From Novacetimonas maltaceti (GTDB lineage: Bacteria; Pseudomonadota; Alphaproteobacteria; Acetobacterales; Acetobacteraceae): DNA of 64,000 nucleotides. Positions within the stretch are counted from its first letter, which is position 1. Every line of letters begins with the position of its first letter. The notes beneath the pieces are model-generated. The model saw only the letters and a list, made by a program, of their open reading frames with translations, had not been told where the DNA came from and ran no database searches. The stretch lies in NCBI RefSeq assembly GCF_002906255.1, contig NZ_POTC01000012.1, positions 1-64,000 on the forward strand, in the 5' to 3' direction. A program made the translations under genes and the position numbers. Shown here one piece after another: positions 16,778 through 51,061 of the stretch.

Positions 16778-17018
16778 TCCGTGTTCCTCATTTTCTGGCG
16801 TTGCTGGCCTGGCGGCCATCCGGGACTGTCGTGGTCGATATTGCCGCGTTTTGTGTCGCGTCCGCGACGTTCTGTCATGCTTAACAGATAATTCCCCTGG
16901 CAGGTTGCCTGCCTGTGGCCACATCATGGGATCGCATGGTGACAGGCAGGAGTCCCGTTCCACCTTCCGCGGGCAGTCGCAGGGATTGCCAATGACGCCA
17001 TGGCATGATCTGCTATGT

Positions 17019-17024
17019 TATAAT
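17019..17024 (+). promoter_or_regulatory. Perfect TATAAT -10 hexamer upstream of the S46 peptidase gene
   Basis: TATAAT lies 23 nt before the ATG at 17047 in a locally AT-rich stretch (17014-17034). No good -35 is present at 16-18 bp, so this is a suggestion only. Confidence 0.35.
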
Positions 17025-17046
17025 ATTATATTTCATCGGGTGCCTT

Positions 17047-19161
17047 ATGCTGTCAAAATCATTTCTCCTTGGTTCCGCAGCCGTTTTCGTGGCGTTCGCG
17101 GCAACAGGTCCTGCCCGCGCGGAAGAAGGCATGTGGACGTTCAACCACCTTCCCGTTGCGACCCTGCAGAAAACCTACGGCTTTACGCCCGACAGCGCAT
17201 GGATCGAGCATGTCGTGCAGTCTTCCGCACGGCTTGCCGAAGGGTGCTCCGCCTCCTTCGTGTCGGGGGGCGGGCTTGTCATGACCAACCATCATTGCGC
17301 CAATTCGTGCCTTGCCGCACTGTCTGACAGGACGCACGACTATTTCCGCGACGGCTTTTATTCCCACACCCCGGCCGAGGAGCGCCAGTGTCCGGGCATG
17401 GAGCTGGACCGCCTTGATACCATCAGCGACGTATCCGGGCAGGTGGCCGACGCGACACGGGGCACGAGTGGGGCCGCCTATACCGCTGCCATGCAGAAGG
17501 TCGAAAGTGAACTGACCAGGGACTGTGTCAAGGGCGATCCGACGCACTGGCGCTGTGACATGGTATCACTCTTTCACGGTGGCCAGAGCGCGCTTTATCG
17601 CTATCGCCGTTACCAGGATGTGCGTGTCGTCATGGCGCCGGAACAGGGGATCGCCTTTTTCGGCGGGGATCCGGATAATTTCAGCTACCCGCGCTATGAC
17701 ATCGATTTTTCGATGCTGCGGGTCTATGACGGGGGCAGGCCCGTCCATACCCCGTTCCTGAAATTCGATCCCATGGGGCCGAAGGCGGGGGATCTGGTGT
17801 TTACATCCGGCAATCCCGGCCGGACCCAGCGCAGCCTCCCGGCATCGGCCCTTGCGTTCCAGCGCGATGTCGCCAATCCCGCGATCATCGGCTACCTTTC
17901 GACCCGCGAAGGGATGCTGTGGGAATATTCCCGTCAGGGCACCACCCCCGCCAAGGAGGCGCAGGACGCACTGTTCGGTGTCCAGAATGCCCTGAAATCC
18001 TATTCCGGGACGCAGGCCGCGCTGCGTACCGGGGACATTGTCGCGCGGCGTGGCAGGGAGGATGCCGCGCTGCGGTCATGGATCGAGGCGGACGCCAGCC
18101 GTCGCAAGGAGTATGGCGACCCTTTCCATGATATCGAGCAGGCCGTGGCAGTCCAGAAGACCCTCTTTCCCACGTACCTGGCGCTGCGCATGGCCATGCC
18201 GGGACTGGCGGAAGATGCCGTGACGCTGGTGGATGGCGCGGCGGAGCGCGAAAAACCGGATGCAAAGCGGCATGCGGGCTTCCACGAAGCGCAGCTTGGC
18301 GAAATCGAGACGTCCCTTGGTGCGAAGACACCCGTCTATCCCCGGCTGGAGACGGATACCCTTGCCCTCGGGCTGAGCCTGATGCGCCAGACGCTGGGGG
18401 CGGATGACCCGCTGGTGACGGGCGTGCTGGGCACCGAAAGCCCGGAGGCGCTGGCCGAGCGCCTGGTGAAAGGGACGAAACTGGCTGACCCCGGCGTGCG
18501 TGTCGCGCTGTGGAAAAGGGGACGCACGGCGGTGGATGCGTCATCCGACCCGATGATCGTTTTTGCCCGCAGGCTCTACCCGGCCTATGCCCGGTTGCGT
18601 GAGCGGATGCTCAACGAAGTGACATCGCCGCTGCACAAGGCCGAAGGGGACATCGCGCGCGCCATCTTCGCACGGGCCAAAGCCGAAGGGCATGCGGACG
18701 ATATCTATCCCGATGCAACCTTTTCGCCGCGCCTGTCATGGGGGACGGTAAAGGGATGGACGGAAAATGGCACGGACATCCCGGCCTTTACCGATTTCGC
18801 GGGCATGTATCGCCACGCCACCGGCAGCGATCCGTTCGCACTGCCGAAACGCTGGCTGGGGGCTAAATCGAAGGTGGACCCGGCGACCCATCTTGATTTC
18901 GTTTCCACGAACGACATTGTCGGCGGCAATTCGGGATCGCCGGTCATCGACCGTAACGGCCATGTGGTCGGGCTGATTTTTGATGGCAACCTGCCCAGTC
19001 TGGCGGGCGACCTTTATTATGACATTTCCAGCAACCGGGCGGTTTCCACGGATACCAGCGCCATCATCGCGGCATTGCGCGACGTGTATGACGAACCGAC
19101 ACTGGTGCATGAACTGCTCGACGGGCATCAGGCGGCGGCGTCGGGGGCCGCGAAACCCTGA
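17047..19161 (+). CDS. Exported S46-family dipeptidyl peptidase (DPP7/DPP11-like)
   Basis: This protein of about 704 aa has a signal peptide (LSKSFLLGSAAVFVAFAATGPARA). The chymotrypsin-like double barrel is split by a helical insertion, as is typical of S46. The catalytic His lies in MTNHHCAN (about residue 83) and the Ser in VGGNSGSPV (Ser629). Residues after the Ser, LAGDLYYD, are in the region that decides acidic versus hydrophobic specificity, but I cannot decide it by eye. The enzyme releases dipeptides from oligopeptides in the periplasm. The frame starts at 17005, but ATG 17047 gives the proper signal peptide and lies just after a TATAAT. Confidence 0.93.
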   Translation: MLSKSFLLGSAAVFVAFAATGPARAEEGMWTFNHLPVATLQKTYGFTPDSAWIEHVVQSSARLAEGCSASFVSGGGLVMTNHHCANSCLAALSDRTHDYFRDGFYSHTPAEERQCPGMELDRLDTISDVSGQVADATRGTSGAAYTAAMQKVESELTRDCVKGDPTHWRCDMVSLFHGGQSALYRYRRYQDVRVVMAPEQGIAFFGGDPDNFSYPRYDIDFSMLRVYDGGRPVHTPFLKFDPMGPKAGDLVFTSGNPGRTQRSLPASALAFQRDVANPAIIGYLSTREGMLWEYSRQGTTPAKEAQDALFGVQNALKSYSGTQAALRTGDIVARRGREDAALRSWIEADASRRKEYGDPFHDIEQAVAVQKTLFPTYLALRMAMPGLAEDAVTLVDGAAEREKPDAKRHAGFHEAQLGEIETSLGAKTPVYPRLETDTLALGLSLMRQTLGADDPLVTGVLGTESPEALAERLVKGTKLADPGVRVALWKRGRTAVDASSDPMIVFARRLYPAYARLRERMLNEVTSPLHKAEGDIARAIFARAKAEGHADDIYPDATFSPRLSWGTVKGWTENGTDIPAFTDFAGMYRHATGSDPFALPKRWLGAKSKVDPATHLDFVSTNDIVGGNSGSPVIDRNGHVVGLIFDGNLPSLAGDLYYDISSNRAVSTDTSAIIAALRDVYDEPTLVHELLDGHQAAASGAAKP

Positions 19162-19274: not shown

Positions 19275-21377
19275 TCATGCACAGAACCCGATCACCCGGC
19301 CTTTTTCACGGCCACGGGTCTCTTCGTCCAGCAGGGCCAGCAGGCGGTGGTGGGAGACGGGTTGCGGCATGAAACGCGCGCGCCGGCGCACAAGGGCGAA
19401 ATCCGATGGGGTCAATGGCCCGACATGGCGCAGCCCGGTCGGGGCGGCGTGGCGGAAAAAGCGCGTGAAAGCCGCCTCCCTCTGCCGGGGCGTCAGGTAA
19501 TCGAAACGGGCCTTGAACAGGAAACGGCGCATGCTTGCGGGGTCAAGCCGGGTGGCAAGGTTCGTGGTGCAGGCAAAGGGCAGGGGATGCTGTTCCATCC
19601 ATGTCAGCATCTCGTTGACCTGGCTGACCTCCCATGCGCGTTCGGCGTTGCCGCGATTGCCCAGCAGGCTGTCGACCTCGTCGAAAATCAGGAAGGCCCC
19701 GGTATCGCGCGCCTCGGCAAAGGCGGCGGCGATCTGGCGTTCGGTCTGCCCCACATACTGCCCCAGCAGGTCGGAGGCTCGTTTCTGCAGCACGGGCAGG
19801 TTCATGAGGTCGGCCACATGGCGCGCCCACGCGCTCTTGCCCGATCCCGGCGGCCCGGACAGCAGCAGTGAAATGGCACGCGGGCAGTCAGGTGCCGCGA
19901 ACTGCCGCGCAAGCTGGACCAGGTCGCAGTCGGCATTGACCAGTGCCGGGTCGTAATCCGCAGGCAGGGGCTGGCTTGCCTGCGGCATCAGACCACCATT
20001 TGTTGCGCGCGCGATGCTCATGGCGATCGTGCTGGCTGTATCCGAATTGCCGCGCGCAAGGCGGGTGGACCGCAGGGCATTGCGAAAAATACCGGGCGCG
20101 GCGGGAATGGCGTGCGCCAGGGTGACTGCGTCTTCCCCGCTCAGGGTTACATGTTCCGCCTCGGCCATTTCCTGCCACAGCCGGGTGCGGGCCGTTATGT
20201 CGGGGGCACGCATCTCTATGCACAGCGCCATGCGCCGCGCGACGGCGGGGCCAAGCGTGGGTAGGTCATTGGCGATCCAGATGACCGGCGTTTCGGCATG
20301 TTCCAGCAGGCGATGGAAATAGACCCGGCTGCGGCTCTTGCGCTCCATCGAGAGGGGGGAGGTGAACAGGTCCTCCGCCTCGTCGAACATCAGGACGGAC
20401 GTGGTGTCCTCAAGCAGGCGCAGGTTGCAGCGCAGGTCCGCCAGGCGTTCCATGCGCGACGGCTCATCGCCGCTGGCGTTGACTTCGCCCACCGGGTAGA
20501 GCTTTGCGCCGATCGTGGCGGCAAGGGTTGCCGCGAATTCGGTCTTGCCCGTGCCCGGCGGCCCGTACAGCAGGATATGCACGCCCTTTTCACGTTCCGC
20601 CACGGCGGCGCGCAGGATCTGGCGCGCGATGTCGCCCAGTTCGCCGATATGCGTGAACGCGTCCCATTGCAGCGTGGCTTCGCGCGGGGAGGCGACCAGC
20701 AGGCTGCGGACATCATGTGTCGGTGATGTGCGGCGTGCGATCAGGCTGGCAAGCCGGGGGAGGAGACTGATATCGCCGTCGTCATCCAGGGCGATGATCC
20801 CTGACGTACGCAGTCGCCCCTCCGGGCCGAGCGCCTGGGCAATGGCGGATTCAGGGGCGCCGCTGAGCAACTGGAACAGCGGTATGTCATCGCACAGCGC
20901 CATGTTGCGCCCGTGATTGCGTGTCAGGGCATCCCAGAACTGTTCGAACACAGGGTTCGTCATGTACAGGAAGATGATGCCCAGGATGAAGGTTTCCGTA
21001 TCGTTCAGTCCCAGGATTTCCTGCAGGGGCGCAAGCCATCCCCGGATGTGGCAGGTGTCGGTGGCCGTCTGCGCCCGGCGCCTGTCGAGTTCCGCGCCCA
21101 TCCGTTTCCATTCATGCGCCGTCAGGGGCTTTTCGCCATCCTGGCGGCTGGGGGCGGGCAGGACCTGTTCGGGCAGGCCAAGCGGCCTGCGGTTCTGGAC
21201 CACATATTCAACCATGATTGCGGCATCATGTTCATGGCGCTCAAGGCCGGAATGAAGGTGGACCAGTATGCTCAGCAGGAAACCCGCATTGTTGCCTGCA
21301 ATGGTATTTGACGCTTCATTGGGAGACATTCTCAAAAGCTTCCTGCGCGTGCGGGCGTTCTTGATGTAATTTGCCAT
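19275..21377 (-). CDS. Tandem AAA+ ATPase (two ATPase modules, unknown partner)
   Basis: This 700-aa soluble protein has an N-terminal region of about 230 residues without a recognised domain. Two complete AAA modules follow. The first has LLYGPPGTGKTEFA (Walker A) and SVLMFDEAEDLF (Walker B); the second has LLSGPPGSGKSAWARHVA and AFLIFDEVDSLLGNRGNAERAWEVSQVNEML. Both look catalytically competent, resembling Cdc48/ClpX-like remodellers, and no protease domain is attached. ATG 21377 gives the longest form; ATG 21329 (MSPNEASN), preceded by AGGAAG, is also plausible. It is the last gene of a minus-strand cluster with a small unknown protein and a WYL regulator, an arrangement that suggests regulated protein or nucleoprotein remodelling. 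Confidence 0.85.
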   Translation of the reverse strand: MANYIKNARTRRKLLRMSPNEASNTIAGNNAGFLLSILVHLHSGLERHEHDAAIMVEYVVQNRRPLGLPEQVLPAPSRQDGEKPLTAHEWKRMGAELDRRRAQTATDTCHIRGWLAPLQEILGLNDTETFILGIIFLYMTNPVFEQFWDALTRNHGRNMALCDDIPLFQLLSGAPESAIAQALGPEGRLRTSGIIALDDDGDISLLPRLASLIARRTSPTHDVRSLLVASPREATLQWDAFTHIGELGDIARQILRAAVAEREKGVHILLYGPPGTGKTEFAATLAATIGAKLYPVGEVNASGDEPSRMERLADLRCNLRLLEDTTSVLMFDEAEDLFTSPLSMERKSRSRVYFHRLLEHAETPVIWIANDLPTLGPAVARRMALCIEMRAPDITARTRLWQEMAEAEHVTLSGEDAVTLAHAIPAAPGIFRNALRSTRLARGNSDTASTIAMSIARATNGGLMPQASQPLPADYDPALVNADCDLVQLARQFAAPDCPRAISLLLSGPPGSGKSAWARHVADLMNLPVLQKRASDLLGQYVGQTERQIAAAFAEARDTGAFLIFDEVDSLLGNRGNAERAWEVSQVNEMLTWMEQHPLPFACTTNLATRLDPASMRRFLFKARFDYLTPRQREAAFTRFFRHAAPTGLRHVGPLTPSDFALVRRRARFMPQPVSHHRLLALLDEETRGREKGRVIGFCA

Positions 21378-21428: not shown

Positions 21429-21755
21429 CTAGCGCCACAGGCGGCGGGTGCGGTGGCCGACCGTGACGATCTGGTCATCGGCGCTGATGATGGCATAGAT
21501 GCCCTTCAACCGGTCATCGTCGGTGCATATGCCTTCCGCCAGCAGTTCCGCATGGCGGCGGCGCGGAAGATAGATCATCTCGCTCCCGCCGCCGGCAGGC
21601 TTGCGCACCCCATGCTCCAGAAGCAGGGCGAGGACCACGGGCCGGATGGCGCGCTGCTGGCTGCGCCTGGTGGCATGTTTCGTCATTGCCCCCATGGCGT
21701 AGGCGTAGGTCTTCAGAGTATCGCGGCTATGCTTCTTGCTGACGGTACAGGCCAT
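21429..21755 (-). CDS. Small uncharacterised protein (C-terminal ITVGHR-like motif)
   Basis: This basic protein of 108 aa has no signal peptide or membrane segment. From about residue 25 (TKHATRRSQQRAIRP) through IYAIISADDQIVTVGHRTRRLWR it resembles a widespread family of uncharacterised proteins of about 100 aa that end in VITVGHRxxRI. That likeness is from memory and not confirmed. It lies 51 bp upstream of the AAA+ ATPase start and 89 bp downstream of the WYL regulator stop, on the same strand, so co-transcription is likely. It could be a toxin-like or nucleic-acid-binding partner, but no catalytic motif proves this. Confidence 0.65.
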   Translation of the reverse strand: MACTVSKKHSRDTLKTYAYAMGAMTKHATRRSQQRAIRPVVLALLLEHGVRKPAGGGSEMIYLPRRRHAELLAEGICTDDDRLKGIYAIISADDQIVTVGHRTRRLWR

Positions 21756-21844
21756 TGCGGTCTCCTCTGTGCATCTGCAGCAGGGATAACCGCGCGCTAT
21801 GTCAGAAATGGTCGTTGGTGGGACAGGGCGGGCAAAAAACTTTC

Positions 21845-22837
21845 TCAGGGTCCGGGGGTATGTTCATGATGCTCCAGCGCCTTGCGCAGCAGCCTGCATA
21901 ATTCCGTACGCAGTTCGACGGGGGCGAGGATTTCCACCGCCGTGCCCCAGGTGAACAGGTAGAAGGCCTGTTCCTGCAGGCCCCCGGCATGGTAGCGCAC
22001 GATCAGCGAGCCGTCGGGCAGGCGTTCGAGTTCCTGCGTCGGGTGGAAATGGCGCAGTGCTGCGTCCTCCGCCGCCTCGGGCGTGAAGCGCAGGATCACA
22101 TCATGTGGCGTGTCCTGGTAGATCCCGAATGACCGCGCGGCGAAGGCCTCGAGGTCCCACTGGGCAGGCGGCGGCGTGGCGGGGGCATCCGACAGCTTTA
22201 TGTCATGCATGCGGTCCAGCCGCCATAACGCGGGTTCCGTCTTGCCCTCCCCGGGGGCGACAAGATAATAGGCCGCCGGCCCATAGAGCAGCCCCCACGG
22301 GGTGACCTGACGCAGGCGGTTCGACCCGGTCTTGTACAGGAACGTCACCGCGCATCCCGCCTTGAGCGCCGTGCGGATGGTTTCAAGGATCGTCGGATCG
22401 TCCAGCGGGCGCAGGCCAGCCTGCATGGCCTGGCTTTCGCTTGTCAGCAGCGCGTCTAGGTCAGGCGCCATGCGCAGCCGCGCGGCAGGGCGCAGTGCCG
22501 CATGGACCTTGTCATACAGCGTGCCGAGAAGGCCCGCGCGCGTGGTATCCCCCTTTGTCTTCAGCGTGGCGATGGCGACACGCAGTTCCGCCAGTTCGTC
22601 GACACTTGGCATCTGGAGAAAACCGTCAAGCCCGCCGGGAATGCGGAAGCGTTTCCTGTGGCCGTCCGAGACCGTCTCCCACTGGGGGAACATCTGCTCG
22701 AGCACGGCGCGCATGCGATCCACCGTGCGGCGCGTCGTCCCCATTTCGGCCGCCATTTCATCCAGGGTCATGCCTTCGGCGCTGCCCGCGAGTTTGCGGG
22801 CCAGCTTCAGAAGGTCATCAAATTTCCCATAGCGCAT
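21845..22837 (-). CDS. WYL-domain transcriptional regulator (HTH-WYL)
   Basis: This protein of about 330 aa has an N-terminal winged helix-turn-helix of the HTH_11/DeoR-like type (LDEMAAEMGTTRRTVDRMRAVLEQMFP) and a central WYL domain (VTFLYKTGSNRLRQVTPWGLLYGPAAYYLVAP), followed by the C-terminal WCX-type extension. WYL regulators sense nucleotides or DNA ends and often control defence or DNA-damage genes. The start is uncertain: ATG 22837 begins MRYGKFDDLLKL, and ATG 22876 would fall inside the inverted repeat. With 22837, the palindrome lies 18-44 nt upstream and autoregulation is the simple reading. Downstream on the same strand are the small protein and the AAA+ ATPase. Confidence 0.9.
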   Translation of the reverse strand: MRYGKFDDLLKLARKLAGSAEGMTLDEMAAEMGTTRRTVDRMRAVLEQMFPQWETVSDGHRKRFRIPGGLDGFLQMPSVDELAELRVAIATLKTKGDTTRAGLLGTLYDKVHAALRPAARLRMAPDLDALLTSESQAMQAGLRPLDDPTILETIRTALKAGCAVTFLYKTGSNRLRQVTPWGLLYGPAAYYLVAPGEGKTEPALWRLDRMHDIKLSDAPATPPPAQWDLEAFAARSFGIYQDTPHDVILRFTPEAAEDAALRHFHPTQELERLPDGSLIVRYHAGGLQEQAFYLFTWGTAVEILAPVELRTELCRLLRKALEHHEHTPGP

Positions 22838-22854
22838 CGCCGGTCGCTTCGCTC

Positions 22855-22881
22855 CTGTTATGACCAATTCTGTCATAACAG
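22855..22881. promoter_or_regulatory. Perfect 10-bp inverted repeat, likely WYL regulator operator
   Basis: CTGTTATGAC (22855-22864) and GTCATAACAG (22872-22881) are exact reverse complements separated by CAATTCT. The site lies 18 nt upstream of the regulator start at 22837. Autoregulatory inverted repeats at this place are known for WYL regulators such as BrxR. Binding here is inferred. Confidence 0.6.
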
Positions 22882-22955
22882 AAGCCTGCGGCACGCCAAC
22901 CCGTCACGGCGTATAATGCCCCATCGCCATTTTTCATGATGGCGTGCCGCGCGGC

Positions 22956-23402
22956 TTATTTCCGGTAGGCGTCAGGCAGGTAGCCGGGACGCGACGTGCG
23001 CGGCAGCAGGATATCGGGCAGGCCCGTATGGGACTGGTTGCGCCTGCGGATGCCATCAAGGGTATCTGGCCCGAGCAGCTGGTCATCCGGGCAGAAGGGC
23101 GCGCCAAGATAGTCGTTGCAGATCGTGCGCCTGAGCACGATGTCGCGCTTGAGGAACGTGGCGAACAGGAACGGATGGCCCTTTTCTTCGTCAAGCTCCC
23201 GGCGGCCGCAGCGCAGTTGCAGGCCCTGTTCAAGGTTGATGAACCACCAGTCCAGCGACAGGTTGCGGTAATATTCGATAAGCCCGTAAAGGTTCCGCAG
23301 CGTGGAAGGAGCGTAATTGTGGCTCATGGACCTGAACGCGACTCTTTTTTCGAGATGTGCTGCAAGATCATGCATGGGAAAGGATGCCTTTTGCGAAATC
23401 AT
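22956..23402 (-). CDS. Hypothetical protein, 148 aa
   Basis: This soluble, charged protein has no signal peptide and no membrane segment. Notable stretches are LYGLIEYYRNLSLDWWFINLEQGLQL and FLFATFLKRDIVLRRTICNDYLGAPFCPDDQLL. It is not recognised. It lies immediately upstream of the WYL regulator on the same strand, with the palindromic operator in the gap, so it may be a separate unit or part of the same system. An alternative start is ATG 23375 (MHDLAAHLEKRV). Codon use looks like the neighbouring genes, and the frame is continuous over the whole length, supporting a real gene. Confidence 0.55.
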   Translation of the reverse strand: MISQKASFPMHDLAAHLEKRVAFRSMSHNYAPSTLRNLYGLIEYYRNLSLDWWFINLEQGLQLRCGRRELDEEKGHPFLFATFLKRDIVLRRTICNDYLGAPFCPDDQLLGPDTLDGIRRRNQSHTGLPDILLPRTSRPGYLPDAYRK

Positions 23403-23687
23403 GGGTGTCCGGTATGTGCATGAAGGTTATGGATACCGGCTACGTCAGGAACGGTCGTAACTGGACAGGTCATGTCGTATTTTGTTGTGATTGGTAAACC
23501 GGTGGACGGGCAGGGGCGCGTTCAAGGCTTTTTTCCATCCTGTGTTGCAGGAGAAAGGGTCTCATGCCCCCATGCGAACGCATGGATATGAATGGGGAGC
23601 TGCCAATGCCGTTTCTGGCAGATCGTGCGGATTATGGTGATGTGCTGCCTGCTCAATATATCCATAGTAAAGGATGGGCGTATTTAA
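23403..23687. other. Intergenic stretch, 285 bp
   Basis: This is a divergent spacer between the 148-aa gene and the secreted protein gene. A good ribosome-binding sequence (AGGAGAAAGGG) precedes an ATG at 23564 that opens a 92-codon frame overlapping the next gene out of frame. I judge that frame unlikely to be a real product, but a short leader peptide is possible. No other structure was seen. Confidence 0.4.
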
Positions 23688-42972: not shown

Positions 42973-43252
42973 GGGAAAGGCGCATCAATCATTTTGGGTG
43001 GTAAATAATACCGGCATCATGTGCATTTTCATTTCTGCCGTCAATCAAACTGTTTTCTGTACATTTTCTACATTAATAACCGGCAGGGAAAATTTATATA
43101 AAGACTGGATGGTATTGGCGGCCCATGGTCGGCATGGCAGCCGCATTTCATCGATTCGATGACGCATTTCCGTGTAATTCCCAGATATGACCGTTTCTGT
43201 CGTAACGGTGCCCCATGCTTGTGCTGTCGTCAGGATAAGGGAGACACGGCAC

Positions 43253-43459
43253 ATGACCATCGGCACCGCAGTCCAGCGCGGACACTTTGTTTACGTTTAT
43301 GACGAAAAGGGACGGCAGATGACTGTCATCCCCGCAGGCAGCCAGTCGGGGGACGGGTTAGAGGGCTATACGGGCGCAACCGTCAGCGTGCGGCGTGGCG
43401 CCTTCATTCATGTCCATGACGAACGGGGCCGCCAGGTGTCGACCATCCCGGCACGCTAG
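43253..43459 (+). CDS. Small protein with two tandem RG-F-V-DE-GRQ repeats
   Basis: This 68-aa protein consists of two near-identical halves: VQRGHFVYVYDEKGRQMTVIPAG and VRRGAFIHVHDERGRQVSTIPAR, joined by a Gly-rich linker (SQSGDGLEGYTGATVS). No signal peptide is seen. ATG 43253 has GGGAGA upstream, while a longer frame from 43187 is not supported. The duplicated beta-hairpin-like unit is compact, and function is unknown. It lies upstream of the AddB-like gene on the same strand, with 123 bp between. Confidence 0.65.
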   Translation: MTIGTAVQRGHFVYVYDEKGRQMTVIPAGSQSGDGLEGYTGATVSVRRGAFIHVHDERGRQVSTIPAR

Positions 43460-43582: not shown

Positions 43583-46249
43583 GTGCAGGAACACGACGCG
43601 ACGGCCAGGCTGCCGCAAAGACGGACCGTTATCGTCCATGATCGCCATGCCATGCGGCAATGGCGCCTCAAGGCCGCCCGTGCGCGGTGGAACGGCCTTC
43701 AGGTCATGACATTCGCGCAGGCCATTGCCAGGCTGGCCGGTGGGTTTGCGCATGAGGTCGATGAAGAAACATTGCAACAGGCGGTGCGGGACACCCTGCA
43801 CGATGTGCGGCTTGTGGAACTGGCCCCCATCAGCAGCCTGCCCGGCATGGCCAGCGCGGTAACTGCGACCCTGCGGCGGGTGTGGGATGCCGGCATCGAC
43901 CTTGCGGCACGCGCGGACACCCATCCGCGCATTGCCGAAATGGCACGGATCGAGGCCGCAATCCTTGACGCCCTGCCCCCCGGTTGCCTGAGCAGGGCTG
44001 AAATGGCGCGACGGGCCTGTGCCCGCATGGTGCATGCCCCCGCGCTGCTTGGCCCGGTTGAAATCATGGGCGTGCCGGATCTTTCGCCATGCTGGCGGCC
44101 CGTTGCGCAGGCGCTTGCGGCGCATGTGCCCGTGCAATGGCATGCCGGACCGCGCCAGGCCCCCGCATGGCTGGCCGGGACGGGCATGGCAGTGGTGACC
44201 GCCGCGCCCTCCATGCCGGATGTAACGTGCTGCAGCACGGCGACACCCCACCATGAAGCCATCGAGGCGATGCGCTGGGCGCGGGCGCTTATGGCGTCCG
44301 GCCAGGCGCGGCCGGAGGACATCGCCATCGCCACCACGGGTGTGAACGCCTATGACGCAAGCTTCCTGAGCCTGCGGGCCGATGCGAATTTCGCCCTGCA
44401 CTTTGTCCACGGCCAGCCCATTACCGCGACACGGGACGGGCAGGCGGCGGCCGCGCTGGCGGATATCGTGGTGCGTGGCCTGTCACGCCAGCGACTGCGC
44501 CGCCTTGTCAGCCTGACGCAGGCCAGCGCCCCGATGCTGGCGGCCCTGCCCGAAGGGTGGATGCGTATCCTGGGCACGGCACCGCTGGCAACGCCCGATG
44601 CGTGGGCACGGTACCTGTCCGGCCTTTCGGCGGGGGACTGGCCCGATGGTACCGACCATGGCGCCACCCTGCAGGCACTGGTTGACCTGCTGCACCGTGG
44701 CGCCACGGCGGCGGGCGAAATGGGCGAACAGGTGCTGACAGGCTGTGCGCGGTTGATCTGGCGGGCGGCGCTGGCGGCAGGTCCGGCGCAGTCGGTGGAC
44801 CTGACGGTGGAAGGGATGCGGCTGGATGACAGCACGGACCCCTGCGCATCGGTCGCATGGATGCCGGCGGAGGCCCTGGCCGCATCGCCACGCCGGTTTG
44901 TCAGGCTGCTGGGCCTCAATTCCGCCCGCTGGCCCCGCAATGCGGGCGAAGACAGGCTGTTGCCCGATCACATCATTCCTTCCGCCGAACTCAACCCCAC
45001 GCCCACCGGCATGGCGGACCGGCGCGCCTTTGCCACCATCATGGCGACAACCGCCGGGCATGTGGTCCTTTCGCGCGCGCGGCGTGGCAATGACGGGCGA
45101 CTGCTGGGCCGCAGCGCCCTGTTGCGGGACTACCCGGCGGAGACCTACCTGCGGCGCAACCGCGTGCCCGCCCATGCCTATAGCGAGACGGACCGGCTGA
45201 CCGCACGTCGGGGGGAATTCGCCCGCACGCCACAGGCCCGTTCCGCCACGGCCTGCTGGCATGACTGGCAGCGCGCCGATATCACGCCGCATGACGGACT
45301 GCTCCGCGCGGAACATCCGGTCATGCAGGCCATCATGCAGCGCACGCAGTCCGCCAGTTCGCTGCGCCTGCTGCTGCGTAACCCGCTGGGTTTCATGTGG
45401 CGTTACGGGCTGGGCCTGAATGCGGCGCAGGAAGGGCAGGACAGCCTGATGCCCGACGCCATGGCCGTGGGCAACCTTGTCCACGCCACGATGGAACATG
45501 CCCTTCGGCTCACGACGCGGGAGGCAGCGGCAAATCCAGACCATGACACCGTTGTGGAGCAGGCCCTTGCCGCCGCGGCGGAGGAATGGCAGCGCGAAAA
45601 TGCCACGCCACCCCGGCTGCTATGGCACCACCTGCTCGATACCGTGCGTACCATGGCACGATGGGGCCTGCGTGTGACATGCAAAAACGCCACGGGTGGC
45701 TGCTCCTACGCCGAAGTGCCGTTTGGCGGCATTGCCACCGACCGGGACAGGCAGGCGGCGTGGGATGCGGCACAGCCGGTCCCGGTTGCCGATACCGGGT
45801 TCTTCATCAACGGGTATATCGACCGTCTGGACATCTCCGCCGATGGGCGGCAGGCCTGGGTGTACGATTACAAGACAGGCCGGGCGGCAGGGGGCGGGAC
45901 CGTGCTGAAAGGCGGCGCCGAACTGCAGCGGTGCCTGTATGCCTTTGCCGTGCGGGCATTGCTTGGTCCCCGTGTGCAGGTGGATGCAACCCTGCTTTAC
46001 CTGCGCGATGAAACCGTCCTGCGGCTGGATGATCCCCACCAGGCCATGGCGGACCTGACCACCTACCTGCGGGCCGCGCGCCGGACCATGCTTGCGGGCC
46101 ATGCCCTGATCGGCCCCGATAGCGGGGGGGATTATGACGACATGCGCCTGTGCCTGCCTGCCGGGCTGGACGCCTACCGCAAGCGCAAGGAGGCGCAGGC
46201 CAACATGATTCTGGGTGATGACGCCATTGCAGTGTGGGAGGCCCCCTGA
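43583..46249 (+). CDS. AddB-like PD-(D/E)XK nuclease with degenerate helicase domain
   Basis: This 888-aa protein resembles AddB-type subunits: an N-terminal degenerate UvrD-like region without a Walker A (RRTVIVHDRHAMRQW, FAQAIARLAGG), and a C-terminal RecB-like nuclease with GNLVHATMEH (about residue 628), GYIDRLDIS and VYDYKTG (about 759). Canonical AddB proteins are longer and carry a four-Cys iron-sulfur site around the nuclease; I see only one Cys after it, so the cluster is probably absent. The start GTG 43583 is uncertain (ATG 43652 is possible). It overlaps the helicase gene by 1 bp (TGATG). Together they form a helicase-nuclease for double-strand DNA end processing. Confidence 0.8.
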   Translation: MQEHDATARLPQRRTVIVHDRHAMRQWRLKAARARWNGLQVMTFAQAIARLAGGFAHEVDEETLQQAVRDTLHDVRLVELAPISSLPGMASAVTATLRRVWDAGIDLAARADTHPRIAEMARIEAAILDALPPGCLSRAEMARRACARMVHAPALLGPVEIMGVPDLSPCWRPVAQALAAHVPVQWHAGPRQAPAWLAGTGMAVVTAAPSMPDVTCCSTATPHHEAIEAMRWARALMASGQARPEDIAIATTGVNAYDASFLSLRADANFALHFVHGQPITATRDGQAAAALADIVVRGLSRQRLRRLVSLTQASAPMLAALPEGWMRILGTAPLATPDAWARYLSGLSAGDWPDGTDHGATLQALVDLLHRGATAAGEMGEQVLTGCARLIWRAALAAGPAQSVDLTVEGMRLDDSTDPCASVAWMPAEALAASPRRFVRLLGLNSARWPRNAGEDRLLPDHIIPSAELNPTPTGMADRRAFATIMATTAGHVVLSRARRGNDGRLLGRSALLRDYPAETYLRRNRVPAHAYSETDRLTARRGEFARTPQARSATACWHDWQRADITPHDGLLRAEHPVMQAIMQRTQSASSLRLLLRNPLGFMWRYGLGLNAAQEGQDSLMPDAMAVGNLVHATMEHALRLTTREAAANPDHDTVVEQALAAAAEEWQRENATPPRLLWHHLLDTVRTMARWGLRVTCKNATGGCSYAEVPFGGIATDRDRQAAWDAAQPVPVADTGFFINGYIDRLDISADGRQAWVYDYKTGRAAGGGTVLKGGAELQRCLYAFAVRALLGPRVQVDATLLYLRDETVLRLDDPHQAMADLTTYLRAARRTMLAGHALIGPDSGGDYDDMRLCLPAGLDAYRKRKEAQANMILGDDAIAVWEAP

Positions 46250-49200
46250 TGGAACAGATACGTGTGCCACTGAAGGACGATGGCGCCCGCAGGGCGGCGA
46301 TTGCGGATATTTCCCGCTCCTTCCTTGTGGAGGCCGGGGCAGGGTCGGGCAAGACAGCCGTGCTGGCGGGCCGGATCGTCATGCTGCTGGCGGGCGGGGT
46401 GCATCCACGCCACGTCGCGGCCGTCACCTTTACGGAACTGGCGGCCAGTGAACTGGTCATGCGCATCCGCGCCTTTGTCGAGCGGCTCTGCCAGGGCGAT
46501 GTGCCTGCCGAACTGCGTGTTGCCCTGCCGCACGGACTGGACGCGGCGCAACGCACCAGTCTTGCGGCAGCGGCCACCAGCATTGATGACATGACATGCA
46601 GCACCATCCACGGTTTCTGCCAGCGCCTGATCGGCCCCTATCCGGTCGAGGCCGATATGGACCCCGGCGCCGTGCTGGTGGACCCGGGGCAGGGTGGCCT
46701 GATCTTTGACGAAATTACCGAGACCTGGCTGCGTGATGTGCTGTCGGGTCATGAGGACAGCCTGATCGCCACCATGGCGATCGAGGACCCCGGTGGCACG
46801 CTTGGCGAAATCAGGGAAATCCTGCATACCCTGCGCGCACAGCCCGACCTTGCAACACCGCCCCTGCCAGACCTGCATGCCGTCGTGGCGGACTGCATGG
46901 GCGCACTGGACGCCTTTATGGCCTTCTGTCGCGGGGAAGGCCAGATCGAGGCGGAAACGCTCGCCCTTGGTGCGGGGTTTGCGGACCTTGCGCGGAGTGT
47001 CCGGCAGTTGCGCGACGCGGATACGGCCGCCTGCCGCATCCGGCTGCTGCGCACCCCTGCGCCCGAAGGCGTACGTAAAGGCGACGGGGGATGGAAAACA
47101 TATCGCAAGAAGGGAAAGTGGAAGGCCGCTGCGGCCATGGCGGGGGAATCGCAGGCCTATGGCGAGCAACTCAATGACCGGGCCACCATGTTGTATGACG
47201 CCTGCCATGAAACGTGGCAGGCGGTGCAGTCCGCCGTGGCGTCCCATGTGTTCCATGACCTTGTCATGCAACTGCGGCCGGTCATCGACCGGTTCCGTGA
47301 GCATAAGCGCGCGGTCGGGTTGCTGGATTTTGATGACCTGATCCGGACGGCCCGTGACCTGCTGCGTGACCATGCGCAGGTGCGCCATGCACTGGGACAG
47401 CGTTTTTCCCATGTCTTGGTTGACGAATTCCAGGATACCGACCCCACGCAGACCGAGATATTCTGGCGGTTGTGCGGTGATCCCCCGTCCGATGCGCCGG
47501 ATGCCCCATGGGCTGCATGGCATATCCGCCCCGGGGCGCTGTTTCTCGTGGGCGATCCGAAGCAGGCGATCTACCGTTTCCGGGGGGCGGATGTCGGGGC
47601 ATATGTACAGGCGCGTGACCTGTTCCATACCCAGCATGGGACGCAGGGACTGCTGTCGATCACGACCAATTTCCGCTCCTGCGCGCCAATCCTTGATTAC
47701 GTGAACGACTGCTTCGCACATCCCCTTTCGGCACGGAATGGACAGCCGGGCTTTACATCACTGGATGCTTTCATCGCGGGGCGGTCGGCCGGCGCCTGTG
47801 TCATCGCGCTCGATATTCCCGTGGCAGGGGGCGGTGACAGGGGCTCCGTGGATGCCATGCGCCAGGCAGAGGCGCGTGCCGTCGCCCGCATGTGCGCGGG
47901 CCTGATCGGGCATGAAACCGTGCGCGATCGTGAAAGCGGCCTGCCGCGTCCCTGCCGTCCCGGCGATATCGCCCTGCTGGCCCCGACAGGAACCGGGCTG
48001 CATTATTATGAGGAAGCACTGGAACAGCTTGGCATCCCCGTTGCCACGCAGGCGGGAAAGGGCCTGTTCCAGCGCCAGGAAATACAGGACCTGATCGCAC
48101 TGACCCGTGTCCTTGCCGATGCGGGCGATTCCCTTGCTTTCGGCGCACTGCTGCGCGGGCCGCTGGTCGGCCTGACGGACGGGGAGTTGCTGGATATCGT
48201 GGCCGCCCAACCCCGCGGCACGGACAGGCCCGACCGCCTGCCGGCCCTTCGGGTGACGCTGGATATCGCCCATGTGGGGCATGAACTGGCCCGTACGGTC
48301 ATCGAAAAGCTGCAGGTTCTGCGACGCCGCATGCACGCCACCACGCCGTATGACCTGCTGGCGCAGGCCATAGACATGTTGCGTGTGCGCCCGGTGCTAA
48401 TCGAGCGCATGGGCCGGCAGGCCGAACGCGCGCTGGCGAATGTGGACCTGTTCCTGACCTTCGCCCAGGCCTATGACGTACGCGGCCTGCGTGCCTTTGC
48501 CGATGCCATGAATACGGCCTGGACCGATGGCGCGCGTGATGCGGAGGGACGGCCCGACGCGCAGGAGGAAACCGTTGCCCTGTATACCGTGCATGCGGCC
48601 AAGGGGCTGGAATGGCCCATCGTGATGCCGCTCAATACCATGTCGGGAACGCGGTCGGTCAAAGGCATGGTGATCGAGCGTGGGGTGGGGCACATACATG
48701 CCCCGCTGATGGGCATACCCACGACAGGATACGACGCGGTGTGCGAGGAGGAAGCGGCCGAAGCACGGCGCGAACAGATCCGGTTGTGGTATGTCGCCCT
48801 GACCCGTGCGCGTGAAATGCTGGTCCTGCCGCGTTTCGACCTGCCCCTGTCCGACAGGGCATGGACGTCACTGCTGGATCTGAAAATCACGGACCTGCCT
48901 TCCATCACCCTGCCCGAAGGCAACAGCCATTGTGTGCCTCAGTCCGATACCGTGGAAAACCTCCAGACGCGTGAACGGTTCGTGGCGGAAGCAGAAACCA
49001 TTGTACGCGCCACGACAAGGTTGATATGGAAAACACCCAGCAGGGACGAGGGCGCGACGTCTCCCGCGATGGAGACGCCTGTCCCGCAGATCATCCTGCC
49101 AACGGCGGATGATGGGGCGGGGGAGACATACCATCCCGTGTCCGCACCTGTCGTGCGGGGCAGTAGCGAACGTGGCAGCATATTGCACAAGCTTCTGGAA

Positions 49201-49647
49201 GAAGTGCTCAACCATGAAACCCCCGACACGCCAGATGCCCTGAAAGCCCGTGCCGGCACGCTGCTGGCCGAGGCAGGCTGTCCCGTGGTGTCGGATCCGG
49301 CCGCAGGGCCTGAAGCGGGCGAACTGGCGCAATCCGTGCTCCGCGCCCTCCATGCCCCCGAAATATCCCGGTTGCGCACCGTGATGGTCGCGGAATATCC
49401 ACTTTACATGGTGCAGGGCGACGCAGAAGCAACGGATGTCATTTGCGGAATTGCCGATGCCGTCGTGCCGGCCGCCGATGGCACGCCGGAGGTCATCATC
49501 GACTGGAAAAGCGATGTCAATCCATCGGCGGCGACGCTTGCCCATTATCAGGCACAGGTTCGGGCCTACATGGACATGACGGGTGCGCGGCAGGGACTGA
49601 TCGTCATGGCGACATCCGGTGCCGTCATCAGCCTTGAGGCGGCATGA
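46249..49647 (+). CDS. AddA-like UvrD-family helicase-nuclease
   Basis: This 1,132-aa protein has all UvrD/AddA motifs: EAGAGSGKT (motif I, about residue 30), VDEFQDTD (about 390), GDPKQAIYRFRGADV (about 434), TVHAAKGLEWPIV (about 780) and WYVALTRAREML (about 846). A C-terminal RecB nuclease follows with RGSILHKLLEEVLNH, ICGIADAVV and IIDWKSD (about 1,082). It translocates on and degrades DNA ends. The gene starts in a TGATG junction with the AddB-like gene, so the two are co-translated. The standard housekeeping addAB neighbours are not seen here. Confidence 0.9.
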   Translation: MEQIRVPLKDDGARRAAIADISRSFLVEAGAGSGKTAVLAGRIVMLLAGGVHPRHVAAVTFTELAASELVMRIRAFVERLCQGDVPAELRVALPHGLDAAQRTSLAAAATSIDDMTCSTIHGFCQRLIGPYPVEADMDPGAVLVDPGQGGLIFDEITETWLRDVLSGHEDSLIATMAIEDPGGTLGEIREILHTLRAQPDLATPPLPDLHAVVADCMGALDAFMAFCRGEGQIEAETLALGAGFADLARSVRQLRDADTAACRIRLLRTPAPEGVRKGDGGWKTYRKKGKWKAAAAMAGESQAYGEQLNDRATMLYDACHETWQAVQSAVASHVFHDLVMQLRPVIDRFREHKRAVGLLDFDDLIRTARDLLRDHAQVRHALGQRFSHVLVDEFQDTDPTQTEIFWRLCGDPPSDAPDAPWAAWHIRPGALFLVGDPKQAIYRFRGADVGAYVQARDLFHTQHGTQGLLSITTNFRSCAPILDYVNDCFAHPLSARNGQPGFTSLDAFIAGRSAGACVIALDIPVAGGGDRGSVDAMRQAEARAVARMCAGLIGHETVRDRESGLPRPCRPGDIALLAPTGTGLHYYEEALEQLGIPVATQAGKGLFQRQEIQDLIALTRVLADAGDSLAFGALLRGPLVGLTDGELLDIVAAQPRGTDRPDRLPALRVTLDIAHVGHELARTVIEKLQVLRRRMHATTPYDLLAQAIDMLRVRPVLIERMGRQAERALANVDLFLTFAQAYDVRGLRAFADAMNTAWTDGARDAEGRPDAQEETVALYTVHAAKGLEWPIVMPLNTMSGTRSVKGMVIERGVGHIHAPLMGIPTTGYDAVCEEEAAEARREQIRLWYVALTRAREMLVLPRFDLPLSDRAWTSLLDLKITDLPSITLPEGNSHCVPQSDTVENLQTRERFVAEAETIVRATTRLIWKTPSRDEGATSPAMETPVPQIILPTADDGAGETYHPVSAPVVRGSSERGSILHKLLEEVLNHETPDTPDALKARAGTLLAEAGCPVVSDPAAGPEAGELAQSVLRALHAPEISRLRTVMVAEYPLYMVQGDAEATDVICGIADAVVPAADGTPEVIIDWKSDVNPSAATLAHYQAQVRAYMDMTGARQGLIVMATSGAVISLEAA

Positions 49648-49807: not shown

Positions 49808-51061
49808 ATGAAACAGTCCCCCCAACCCGGTCCCGACAGTGCCGTGTCGCGGCTTGCGCCCACGATGGCGCTGACTGATGGGCAGGAAGCCCTGAAGGCC
49901 GAGGTGCTGTCTTTCTGCCGTGCCCACCGGGCGCAGGATCATGCGCTGTTCATCATCGAAGGCGATGCGGGGACCGGCAAGAGCCTGCTGCTCAATACCC
50001 TGTTCACCGCCATCCAGGGTGCGGCGCGCGGGTGTGACATCCATGACCCCCTGCATGGCAGCCGTAATTTCCTGCTGGTCAACCATCCGGAAATGATAAA
50101 GCTGTATCGCAATATTTCCGAAACACAGGCCGCCCTGCGCAAGAAGGATTTCGAACGCCCGACAACCTTCATCAATCAGGCCAATGCCAGTGGCAGGCGT
50201 GCCGACATCGTGCTGGTGGACGAGGCGCATCTGCTGCTGACCCGCCGTGATCCCTATAACCGGTTCCATCAGGACAACCAGCTGGAGGAGATCATCCGCC
50301 ATGCGCATGTGGTGGTGATCGTGTTCGATGCCCGCCAGGTCCTGAAGTTCAAGAGCCTGTGGGATGATGCCTCCCTTGCGCAACTGGTATCTGGCTTTCC
50401 CGTCGTGACCCGTAGGCTGGACCATCAGTTCCGCATGCACGCCCATGCCGATGTCATGGACTGGATCCGCGCGTTGCGGGATGGCGTCCTGCGTCCACTG
50501 CCCGCGCCGCAGGCGTTCGATTTCCGTATATTCGATGATGCGCAGGACATGTATGAGGCCATCAGGCAGCGTAACGCGCAATACGGCCTGTGTCGCATGC
50601 TGGCGACCTATGATTATCCCTATACCCTGAACGGGCAGGACCACTTCATTACCGAGGGACGTTTTCACCTGCGCTGGGACCGGGCCATGCCACAGGCGCG
50701 GCTGCCATGGGCGGAACGTCCCGATACGATTGATGAGGTGGGGTCGGTCTATACCATTCAGGGGTTCGACCTCAATTACGCCGGCGTGATCCTGGGGCCA
50801 TCCGTCACCTATGACCGCGCCGCCGACCGGATCGTGATCGACCCGTCACGTTACGAGGACCGCGCCGCCTTTACCGGTCGCGATGGCGTGGCAGACCCGC
50901 ATGAAGTCATGGCGCGGATCATCCTCAATTCGATCAATGTCCTCATGACCCGGGGGGTGAGGGGACTGTATATCTACGCCAGTGAACCCGATCTGCATGC
51001 CCGTCTGGCGCGGTTGTGGGAAGAACGGCAGGCGGGCAGTGATACCCGGCCTGCCGCGTGA
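49808..51061 (+). CDS. DUF2075-family ATPase/helicase-like protein
   Basis: This 417-aa protein belongs to the DUF2075 family of P-loop proteins related to Schlafen-type and superfamily 1 helicases: GDAGTGKSLLLNTLF (Walker A, about residue 55), ADIVLVDEAHLLLT (Walker B), RRLDHQFRMHAHADV, VGSVYTIQGFDLNYAGVILGPSV and NVLMTRGVRGLYIYAS. A role in nucleic acid metabolism or defence is suspected for the family but unproven. It follows the AddAB-like pair with a 160-bp gap and a strong hairpin between, so it probably has its own promoter. Confidence 0.85.
   Translation: MKQSPQPGPDSAVSRLAPTMALTDGQEALKAEVLSFCRAHRAQDHALFIIEGDAGTGKSLLLNTLFTAIQGAARGCDIHDPLHGSRNFLLVNHPEMIKLYRNISETQAALRKKDFERPTTFINQANASGRRADIVLVDEAHLLLTRRDPYNRFHQDNQLEEIIRHAHVVVIVFDARQVLKFKSLWDDASLAQLVSGFPVVTRRLDHQFRMHAHADVMDWIRALRDGVLRPLPAPQAFDFRIFDDAQDMYEAIRQRNAQYGLCRMLATYDYPYTLNGQDHFITEGRFHLRWDRAMPQARLPWAERPDTIDEVGSVYTIQGFDLNYAGVILGPSVTYDRAADRIVIDPSRYEDRAAFTGRDGVADPHEVMARIILNSINVLMTRGVRGLYIYASEPDLHARLARLWEERQAGSDTRPAA

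Follow-up and report, generated by a model that had tools for sequence, protein, structure and literature searches.

A DriD-type WYL regulator, its putative boxes and a candidate accessory DNA-damage response cassette in an acetic acid bacterium

On the minus strand of a contig of Novacetimonas maltaceti, a WYL regulator gene with a perfect inverted repeat before its start lies together with two genes for small proteins and a gene for a double-AAA+ ATPase, which raises the question of what signal this regulator would answer to and which genes it would control. We analysed a stretch of 64,000 nucleotides of the contig (the window), the relevant features of which are collected in Table 1. An earlier note on the same DNA had described these four genes as a unit around a self-regulated WYL gene. 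Every frame was found at the coordinates claimed there and the 10-bp repeat is exact; the gap between repeat and WYL gene, given as 18 nt, measured 17 nt to the ATG. Gluconacetobacter entanii (G001) carries all four frames in the window's order, and dN/dS between the two species was 0.146 for p148, 0.145 for WYL, 0.194 for p108 and 0.131 for the AAA+ gene. Values of 0.13-0.19 in all four frames indicate four real proteins under purifying selection. The longest WYL frame has a GTG start at 22894 and would overlap the inverted repeat; the ATG at 22837 is the likely start because it aligns to residue 1 of DriD.

Table 1. Positions of genes and candidate regulatory sites in the window. Pattern, box pattern drawn from the relatives' sites; consensus, published DriD consensus.
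Feature	Position	Strand	Remarks
AAA, double-AAA+ ATPase	19275-21377	minus	700 aa; Pfam AAA 1.1e-34; PHROG phrog_10401 'ATPase' 1.6e-78
p108, small DUF4258-like protein (weak family assignment)	21429-21755	minus	108 aa
Degenerate DriD-type box between WYL and p108	21797-21817	plus	4 mismatches to pattern
WYL regulator, DriD homologue (wHTH-3HB-WYL-WCX)	21845-22837	minus	330 aa from ATG; PDB 9pfq/8tp8 full-length match, tree
Perfect inverted repeat CTGTTATGAC-N7-GTCATAACAG	22855-22881	minus (box orientation)	box core 22858-22878; 17 nt before WYL ATG
p148	22956-23402	minus	148 aa; no family assigned, lineage-restricted; dN/dS 0.146; 2/397 family genomes
DriD-type box before p148	23440-23460	plus	37 nt from p148; 2 mismatches to pattern, 3 to consensus
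DriD-type box before p68	43185-43205	minus	47 nt from p68; 0 mismatches to pattern, 2 to consensus
p68	43253-43459	plus	68 aa; in other genera a divergent neighbour of WYL
AddB-like PD-(D/E)XK nuclease	43583-46249	plus	888 aa; PDDEXK_1 5.7e-25
AddA-like UvrD helicase-nuclease	46234-49647	plus	1137 aa; UvrD-helicase 1.6e-50 + PDDEXK_1

The best solved relatives of the WYL protein were the DriD entries 9pfq and 8tp8 (E 1.9e-87, full length). The alignment to DriD covers residues 1-324, with 160 of 322 aligned residues identical (49.7%) and 60% identity in the DNA-binding domain, and the wHTH, three-helix bundle, WYL and WCX domains all lie in one chain (Pfam WYL and WCX; DriD alignment), the domain order of DriD (PMC12340889, PMC4211646). 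When a tree of 69 WYL proteins was rooted at its midpoint, the protein and DriD fell into one 18-row clade with a support of 100/100, a clade that includes one long-branch member (L100). Ten of the 14 residues named for DriD as RNA polymerase contacts in the passages of PMC12340889 are kept, the changed ones being F74, S118, R121 and Q225. The WRLDRM segment, which holds the RLDR arginine pair of the WYL domain, is identical in the two proteins, and we read these arginines as the pair mutated in PafBC and SiwR. On every feature testable by sequence the protein belongs to the DriD clade. DriD, SiwR and PafBC are activated by ssDNA (passages of PMC12340889, PMC4211646, PMC10693628 and PMC11804915) and, by analogy, the window protein would sense ssDNA and activate transcription.

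These comparisons shift the placement of the regulator. The earlier note had named BrxR, CapW and PafBC as established WYL controllers, and it is indeed a WYL regulator; its closest kind, however, is the known activator DriD. BrxR and CapW, too, are WYL regulators that have inverted repeats and lie next to defence genes, but they are repressors (PMC9122601, in the passages that describe them), and none of the six PADLOC matches of the WYL protein was named BrxR or CapW. PafBC has the WYL-WCX arrangement, the conserved arginine pair and the ssDNA activation that we presume here, but is a heterodimer (PMC11804915); one WYL gene is present at the locus, with a weak match to PafC (4.3e-8). SiwR of Mycobacterium smegmatis is a homodimeric WYL activator of its adjacent operon that binds ssDNA and is induced by zeocin; the window likewise has a WYL-type putative activator next to its presumed target genes, but the neighbours of SiwR are DinB/YfiT-like and, as far as the passages of PMC10693628 go, include no AAA+ or AddAB-like genes.

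For DriD the consensus ATACGAC-N7-GTCGTAT has been published (PMC12340889). The window's repeat reads TTATGAC-N7-GTCATAA, i.e. it has the same spacer length and GAC/GTC core and differs in outer bases at 4 of 14 positions. Searched for as such, it was its own sole match in the window at up to three mismatches (0/100 shuffles); its extended arms (14 nt, 93%) go beyond the exact repeat, and it is conserved in G. entanii. The published consensus, at up to three mismatches, found five sites in the window against 1.06 expected, a number reached in 0 of 100 shuffles. The best of the five is the box before p68, and the box before p148 is among them; the other three have no established role, and the boxes at 22858 and 21797 were missed by the consensus at this threshold. 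A pattern drawn from the relatives' sites found three window boxes at up to three mismatches against 0.03 expected, a count that is partly circular because the pattern was built from these very sites; the same holds for the pattern-based counts of boxes before AAA and across genomes given below.

Similar boxes recur at corresponding places elsewhere. One precedes p148 in G. entanii, one lies between WYL and p108 in each of the loci L023, L072 and L073, and the WYL gene has a box on both sides in G. entanii, G238, G296 and G269. Within the 260 nt upstream of the WYL gene, a box stood 35-53 nt before the start in 10 of 17 loci of the DriD clade versus 0 of 9 outside it; of the other clade loci, two had a box at -248 and five had none. 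For DriD itself, the box lies within a divergent promoter, some 40 nt ahead of driD (PMC12340889). Given the kinship with DriD and the box architecture, the repeat is very probably an operator read by the WYL protein, which upholds the earlier view of a DNA-damage-type regulator with its own operator. The gap between p148 and WYL also holds a second perfect inverted repeat (22888-22898 / 22940-22950), with 11-nt arms 41 nt apart, which is mostly conserved in G. entanii and is perhaps the terminator of p148.

The claim that the WYL gene is self-regulated fared less well. With the spacer taken as the guide to orientation, the box before WYL points the opposite way, relative to its gene, from those before p148, p108-AAA and p68-addBA. 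Boxes before AAA in other loci had the orientation of the boxes before these presumed targets. Genus g49 (L075-L078) departs from a simple rule: there a box 250-310 nt upstream of WYL is oriented as at the targets. We infer that the spacer is tied to the direction of control. Caulobacter DriD does not activate its own gene, and the site next to driD serves to switch on the divergent operon (PMC12340889, in the passages on this site). The opposite orientation and the Caulobacter precedent together make self-activation of the WYL gene unlikely, and autorepression is possible because the box is so near the start codon.

The gene set appears to be larger than the four genes of the earlier description, since the box at 43185 leads a further group, p68-addB-like-addA-like. 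In the window the WYL half and the p68-addBA half are 20 kb apart, each with a box. The genome G296 carries AAA-p108-WYL-[box]-p68-addB-addA uninterrupted, and G238, a close relative, carries p108-WYL-[box]-p68-addB-addA, without an AAA gene in the stretch examined; orthologues in these two loci (L072, L073) were 81-87% identical for p68, which adjoins WYL there, 81-83% for the AddB-like and 76-77% for the AddA-like protein. A 56% homologue of p68 faces WYL in a genome of another family (L142, G563), with no good box at that place. In G269 (L074) p68 is degenerate and contains a stop. Like AddAB/RexAB, the pair consists of a PD-(D/E)XK protein and a UvrD-PD-(D/E)XK protein encoded side by side in overlapping genes. 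Unlike them, the AddA-like protein (TIGR02784, 8.8e-86) scores 289.3 bits, below the curated AddA cut-off of 860.75, the AddB-like protein lies below the AddB/RexB cut-off and is not recognised, and the AddB-like protein occurs in only 4 of the 26 genomes searched.

All four of these genomes have a WYL gene, and no AddB-like protein was found at E<=1e-20 in 16 other WYL-bearing genomes (4/20 WYL genomes positive). G. entanii keeps the WYL unit and lacks the AddAB-like pair, G002 is without the WYL unit, and in G003, without AddAB-like genes, the distance from bcsC to the SLFN-type helicase gene is 2.4 kb versus 7.5 kb in the window. This patchy presence marks both the AddAB-like pair and the WYL unit as accessory genes. 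Pairs of AddB-like and AddA-like genes were present in 6 of 34 WYL-bearing stretches (L072, L073, L086, L088, L099 and L100), and one member of the pair in L098. The Schlafen-group-3 helicase gene that follows addA-like (49808-51061) was found in 6 of 6 genomes searched; it also occurs without AddAB-like genes and so probably lies outside the cassette.

Both small frames of the four-gene region are conserved beyond the strain, contrary to one of the refuting conditions set in the earlier note, although p148 extends to just one further species. It had no match at E<=0.1 in Pfam, PADLOC, NCBIfam or PHROGs and none among plasmids; 2 of 397 family genomes carry it, so it is no broadly conserved component of the cassette. 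For p108 there was no match at E<=0.1 in Pfam, PADLOC or NCBIfam, one weak PHROG match (E 0.022) and no relative among the viral contigs searched. Six of seven p108-type relatives matched DUF4258, all below the cut-off, which weakly suggests that p108 is DUF4258-like. Orthologues of p108 lie 3' of WYL in G. entanii, G238 and G296. A p108-like gene faces WYL across a box in the distant genome G671 (33.7% over 92 residues; 38.5 bits versus 22.7 for the best of 500 shuffles), and p108-like genes were present on 12 plasmid records. On a Thauera plasmid (L165, 1235-1824) the p108-like gene shares 4 nt with a helix-turn-helix gene, an overlap of the kind seen in toxin-antitoxin pairs. Structures of p148 and p108 were predicted from two-row alignments and set aside as unusable because mean pLDDT was 44.1 and 50.4.

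The ATPase was found, as claimed, to have two AAA domains (two Pfam PF00004 stretches), and no protease family was among the 25 of 42 Pfam families inspected. Walker A and B motifs are intact in both domains of the window copy. The pore loop of domain 2 is of the aromatic-V-G type (QYVGQTE), and in 24 of 24 aligned AAA+ relatives the V/L-G of the pore loop follows an aromatic or phenylalanine residue. An aromatic pore loop is a mark of polypeptide threading. A box-like site precedes AAA (P<=0.03) in 12 of 19 WYL-linked loci, which are not all independent because L091/L092 and L095/L096 share identical best sites, versus 1 of 5 loci without WYL in view; for this comparison the shuffling was by single nucleotides, and part of the pattern came from L091 and L094. 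Each of the four genus genomes also has a 57-58% AAA+ paralogue without a WYL neighbour (G000:C10:87783-89849, L022, in the own genome, and copies in G001, G002 and G003). By eye, its flanks are alike in the own genome and G002, with a grxB-like gene and a 277-279-aa protein.

Relatives of the WYL protein were found in 54 of 397 family genomes (E<=1e-20) and in 26 of 385 class genomes (1e-30, own genome included). We examined 30 Acetobacteraceae loci out of 55 places, with short flanks, some of them ended by contig ends: AAA lay beside WYL in 18, and 12 had WYL without an AAA neighbour. The two genes were also adjacent in all six AAA-bearing viral contigs and in six of the seven plasmid stretches examined (of 19 matches). 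The WYL-p108-AAA order recurs in G. entanii and G296, and the AAA-WYL pairing reaches far outside the genus. In relatives WYL and AAA+ are also found without each other, a situation that the earlier note had named as refuting; their linkage is thus frequent and not obligatory.

We consider it likely that the window carries an accessory DNA-damage (or phage-DNA) response cassette under a DriD-type activator; the kinship with DriD, the architecture and placement of the boxes and the gene linkage that this reading draws on all emerge from comparison with relatives. The WYL homodimer would be made constitutively and kept off DNA until its WYL domains take up ssDNA, whether this arises at double-strand breaks, at stalled forks or from incoming mobile DNA. 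Once activated, the dimer would bind boxes of the form TAYGAC-CRTTTCT-GWCRTA and recruit RNA polymerase, switching on p108-AAA+, p148 and, 20 kb away, p68-addB-like-addA-like. DNA ends would be processed by the AddAB-like pair, and the double AAA+ would act on a protein partner by threading or remodelling it, perhaps so as to clear proteins from these ends or load them there. We infer from sequence the effector functions of AAA+, p108, p148, p68 and the AddAB-like pair, and any role in defence. On the best reading the benefit would be repair, phage defence or both, and the neighbours fit both.

To our knowledge, DriD has been known from one organism, where its regulon is small. In the present comparison a relative of DriD recurs with its box and an AAA+/AddAB-like set across several genera, plasmids and viral contigs. 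The apparent targets (p108-AAA+, p148 and p68-addB-like-addA-like) differ from the DriD targets named in passages of PMC12340889 and PMC4211646, i.e. didA, bapE, recJ, dnaG and CCNA_03891/01149. The set would connect DNA-end-processing machinery, in a way that can be tested, to a sensor of ssDNA that works independently of SOS, and would set an activator alongside the WYL repressors known from phage-defence islands. In addition, the perfect operator gains a concrete candidate reader, and genes responding to DNA breaks are predicted in a cellulose-producing acetic acid bacterium. Among titles and abstract starts, with subscription papers outside the scope, we found no publication describing WYL/DriD with AddAB, an AAA ATPase or ADP-ribosylglycohydrolase as such a set. 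It is possible, if rather doubtful, that DriD-type WYL proteins in general act as master switches triggered by ssDNA and that what they control is a mobile and modular system for defence and repair, with a fixed WYL-box core, usually a double-AAA+ threader, and exchangeable box-tagged effectors (AddAB-like, DUF4258-like, PglX- or SbcD-linked). The AAA+ would be the conserved effector, stripping or delivering proteins for the nuclease, and if this were true, the cell would respond to the DNA ends of phages or plasmids independently of SOS.

The neighbours also bear on an alternative in which the locus is a BrxR/CapW-like defence island, i.e. the neighbours are kept repressed by the WYL protein until a phage infects, and the AAA+ and nuclease genes encode effectors against phage. 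AAA-WYL pairs on plasmids have ADP-ribosylglycohydrolase, HEPN, PD-(D/E)XK, UvrD, PLD and SNF2 genes as neighbours, other pairs lie on viral contigs, and a GmrSD pair adjoins the WYL unit in G238 and G296. The distribution is patchy and the unit insertable, and a PglX-type methylase gene lies beside the WYL gene of G269, all of which would suit such an island. We nevertheless regard it as unlikely, since the regulator groups with the activator DriD and keeps most of the polymerase-contact residues, and PADLOC holds no system model for p148, p108, p68 or the AddB-like proteins. An SbcD-like phosphoesterase gene is among the neighbours in other WYL stretches. The methylase gene of G269 (L074) lies 3' of the box with a 340-aa gene, and Hen1/Pnkp RNA-repair genes are nearby.

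A second alternative is that the repeat controls WYL alone, as an autorepressor site, and that p148, AAA+ and the AddAB-like pair are chance neighbours. Binding at a perfect box so close to the WYL start codon would block transcription, p148 is lineage-restricted, and AAA and WYL are apart in several genomes; but separate boxes before p148, p108 and p68 are conserved in other species, G296 has the set contiguous, and AAA and WYL are paired in distant genomes, viral contigs and plasmids, which makes this account quite improbable. An IetAS-type or other immunity pair in which the AAA+ feeds a protease is very improbable: AAA domain 2 resembles IetA models (PADLOC 5.7e-30; NCBIfam IteA 7.7e-30) but scores 104.3 bits, far under the curated IteA equivalog cut-off of 510, no subtilisin-like protease was seen adjacent to the window AAA+, and the neighbouring S46 peptidase gene (17005-19161) is convergent with AAA+, absent beside the unit in G. 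entanii, where gluDH directly follows it, and present without the unit in G002.

A scan of the own genome (G000) with TTATGAC-N7-GTCATAA at up to three mismatches gave 81 sites per strand versus 39 for the reversed control and was too loose to use. With a stricter pattern, the counts (forward plus reverse/control) were 8/1 in the own genome, 9/3 in G001, 6/4 in G238, 8/3 in G296, 5/4 in G269, 4/2 in G187 and 3/3 in G217, and 4/3 and 1/5 in G002 and G003, the genus members without a WYL gene. The site TTATGACACGAATGGTCGCAG is also present in G002 and is probably unrelated. The near-match TTATGACAGGAACGGTAATAA (G000:C1:211845-211865, L058) was set aside because a similar site exists in G003, which has no WYL gene at E<=1e-20; it precedes a large ORF that by eye is M1-aminopeptidase-like.
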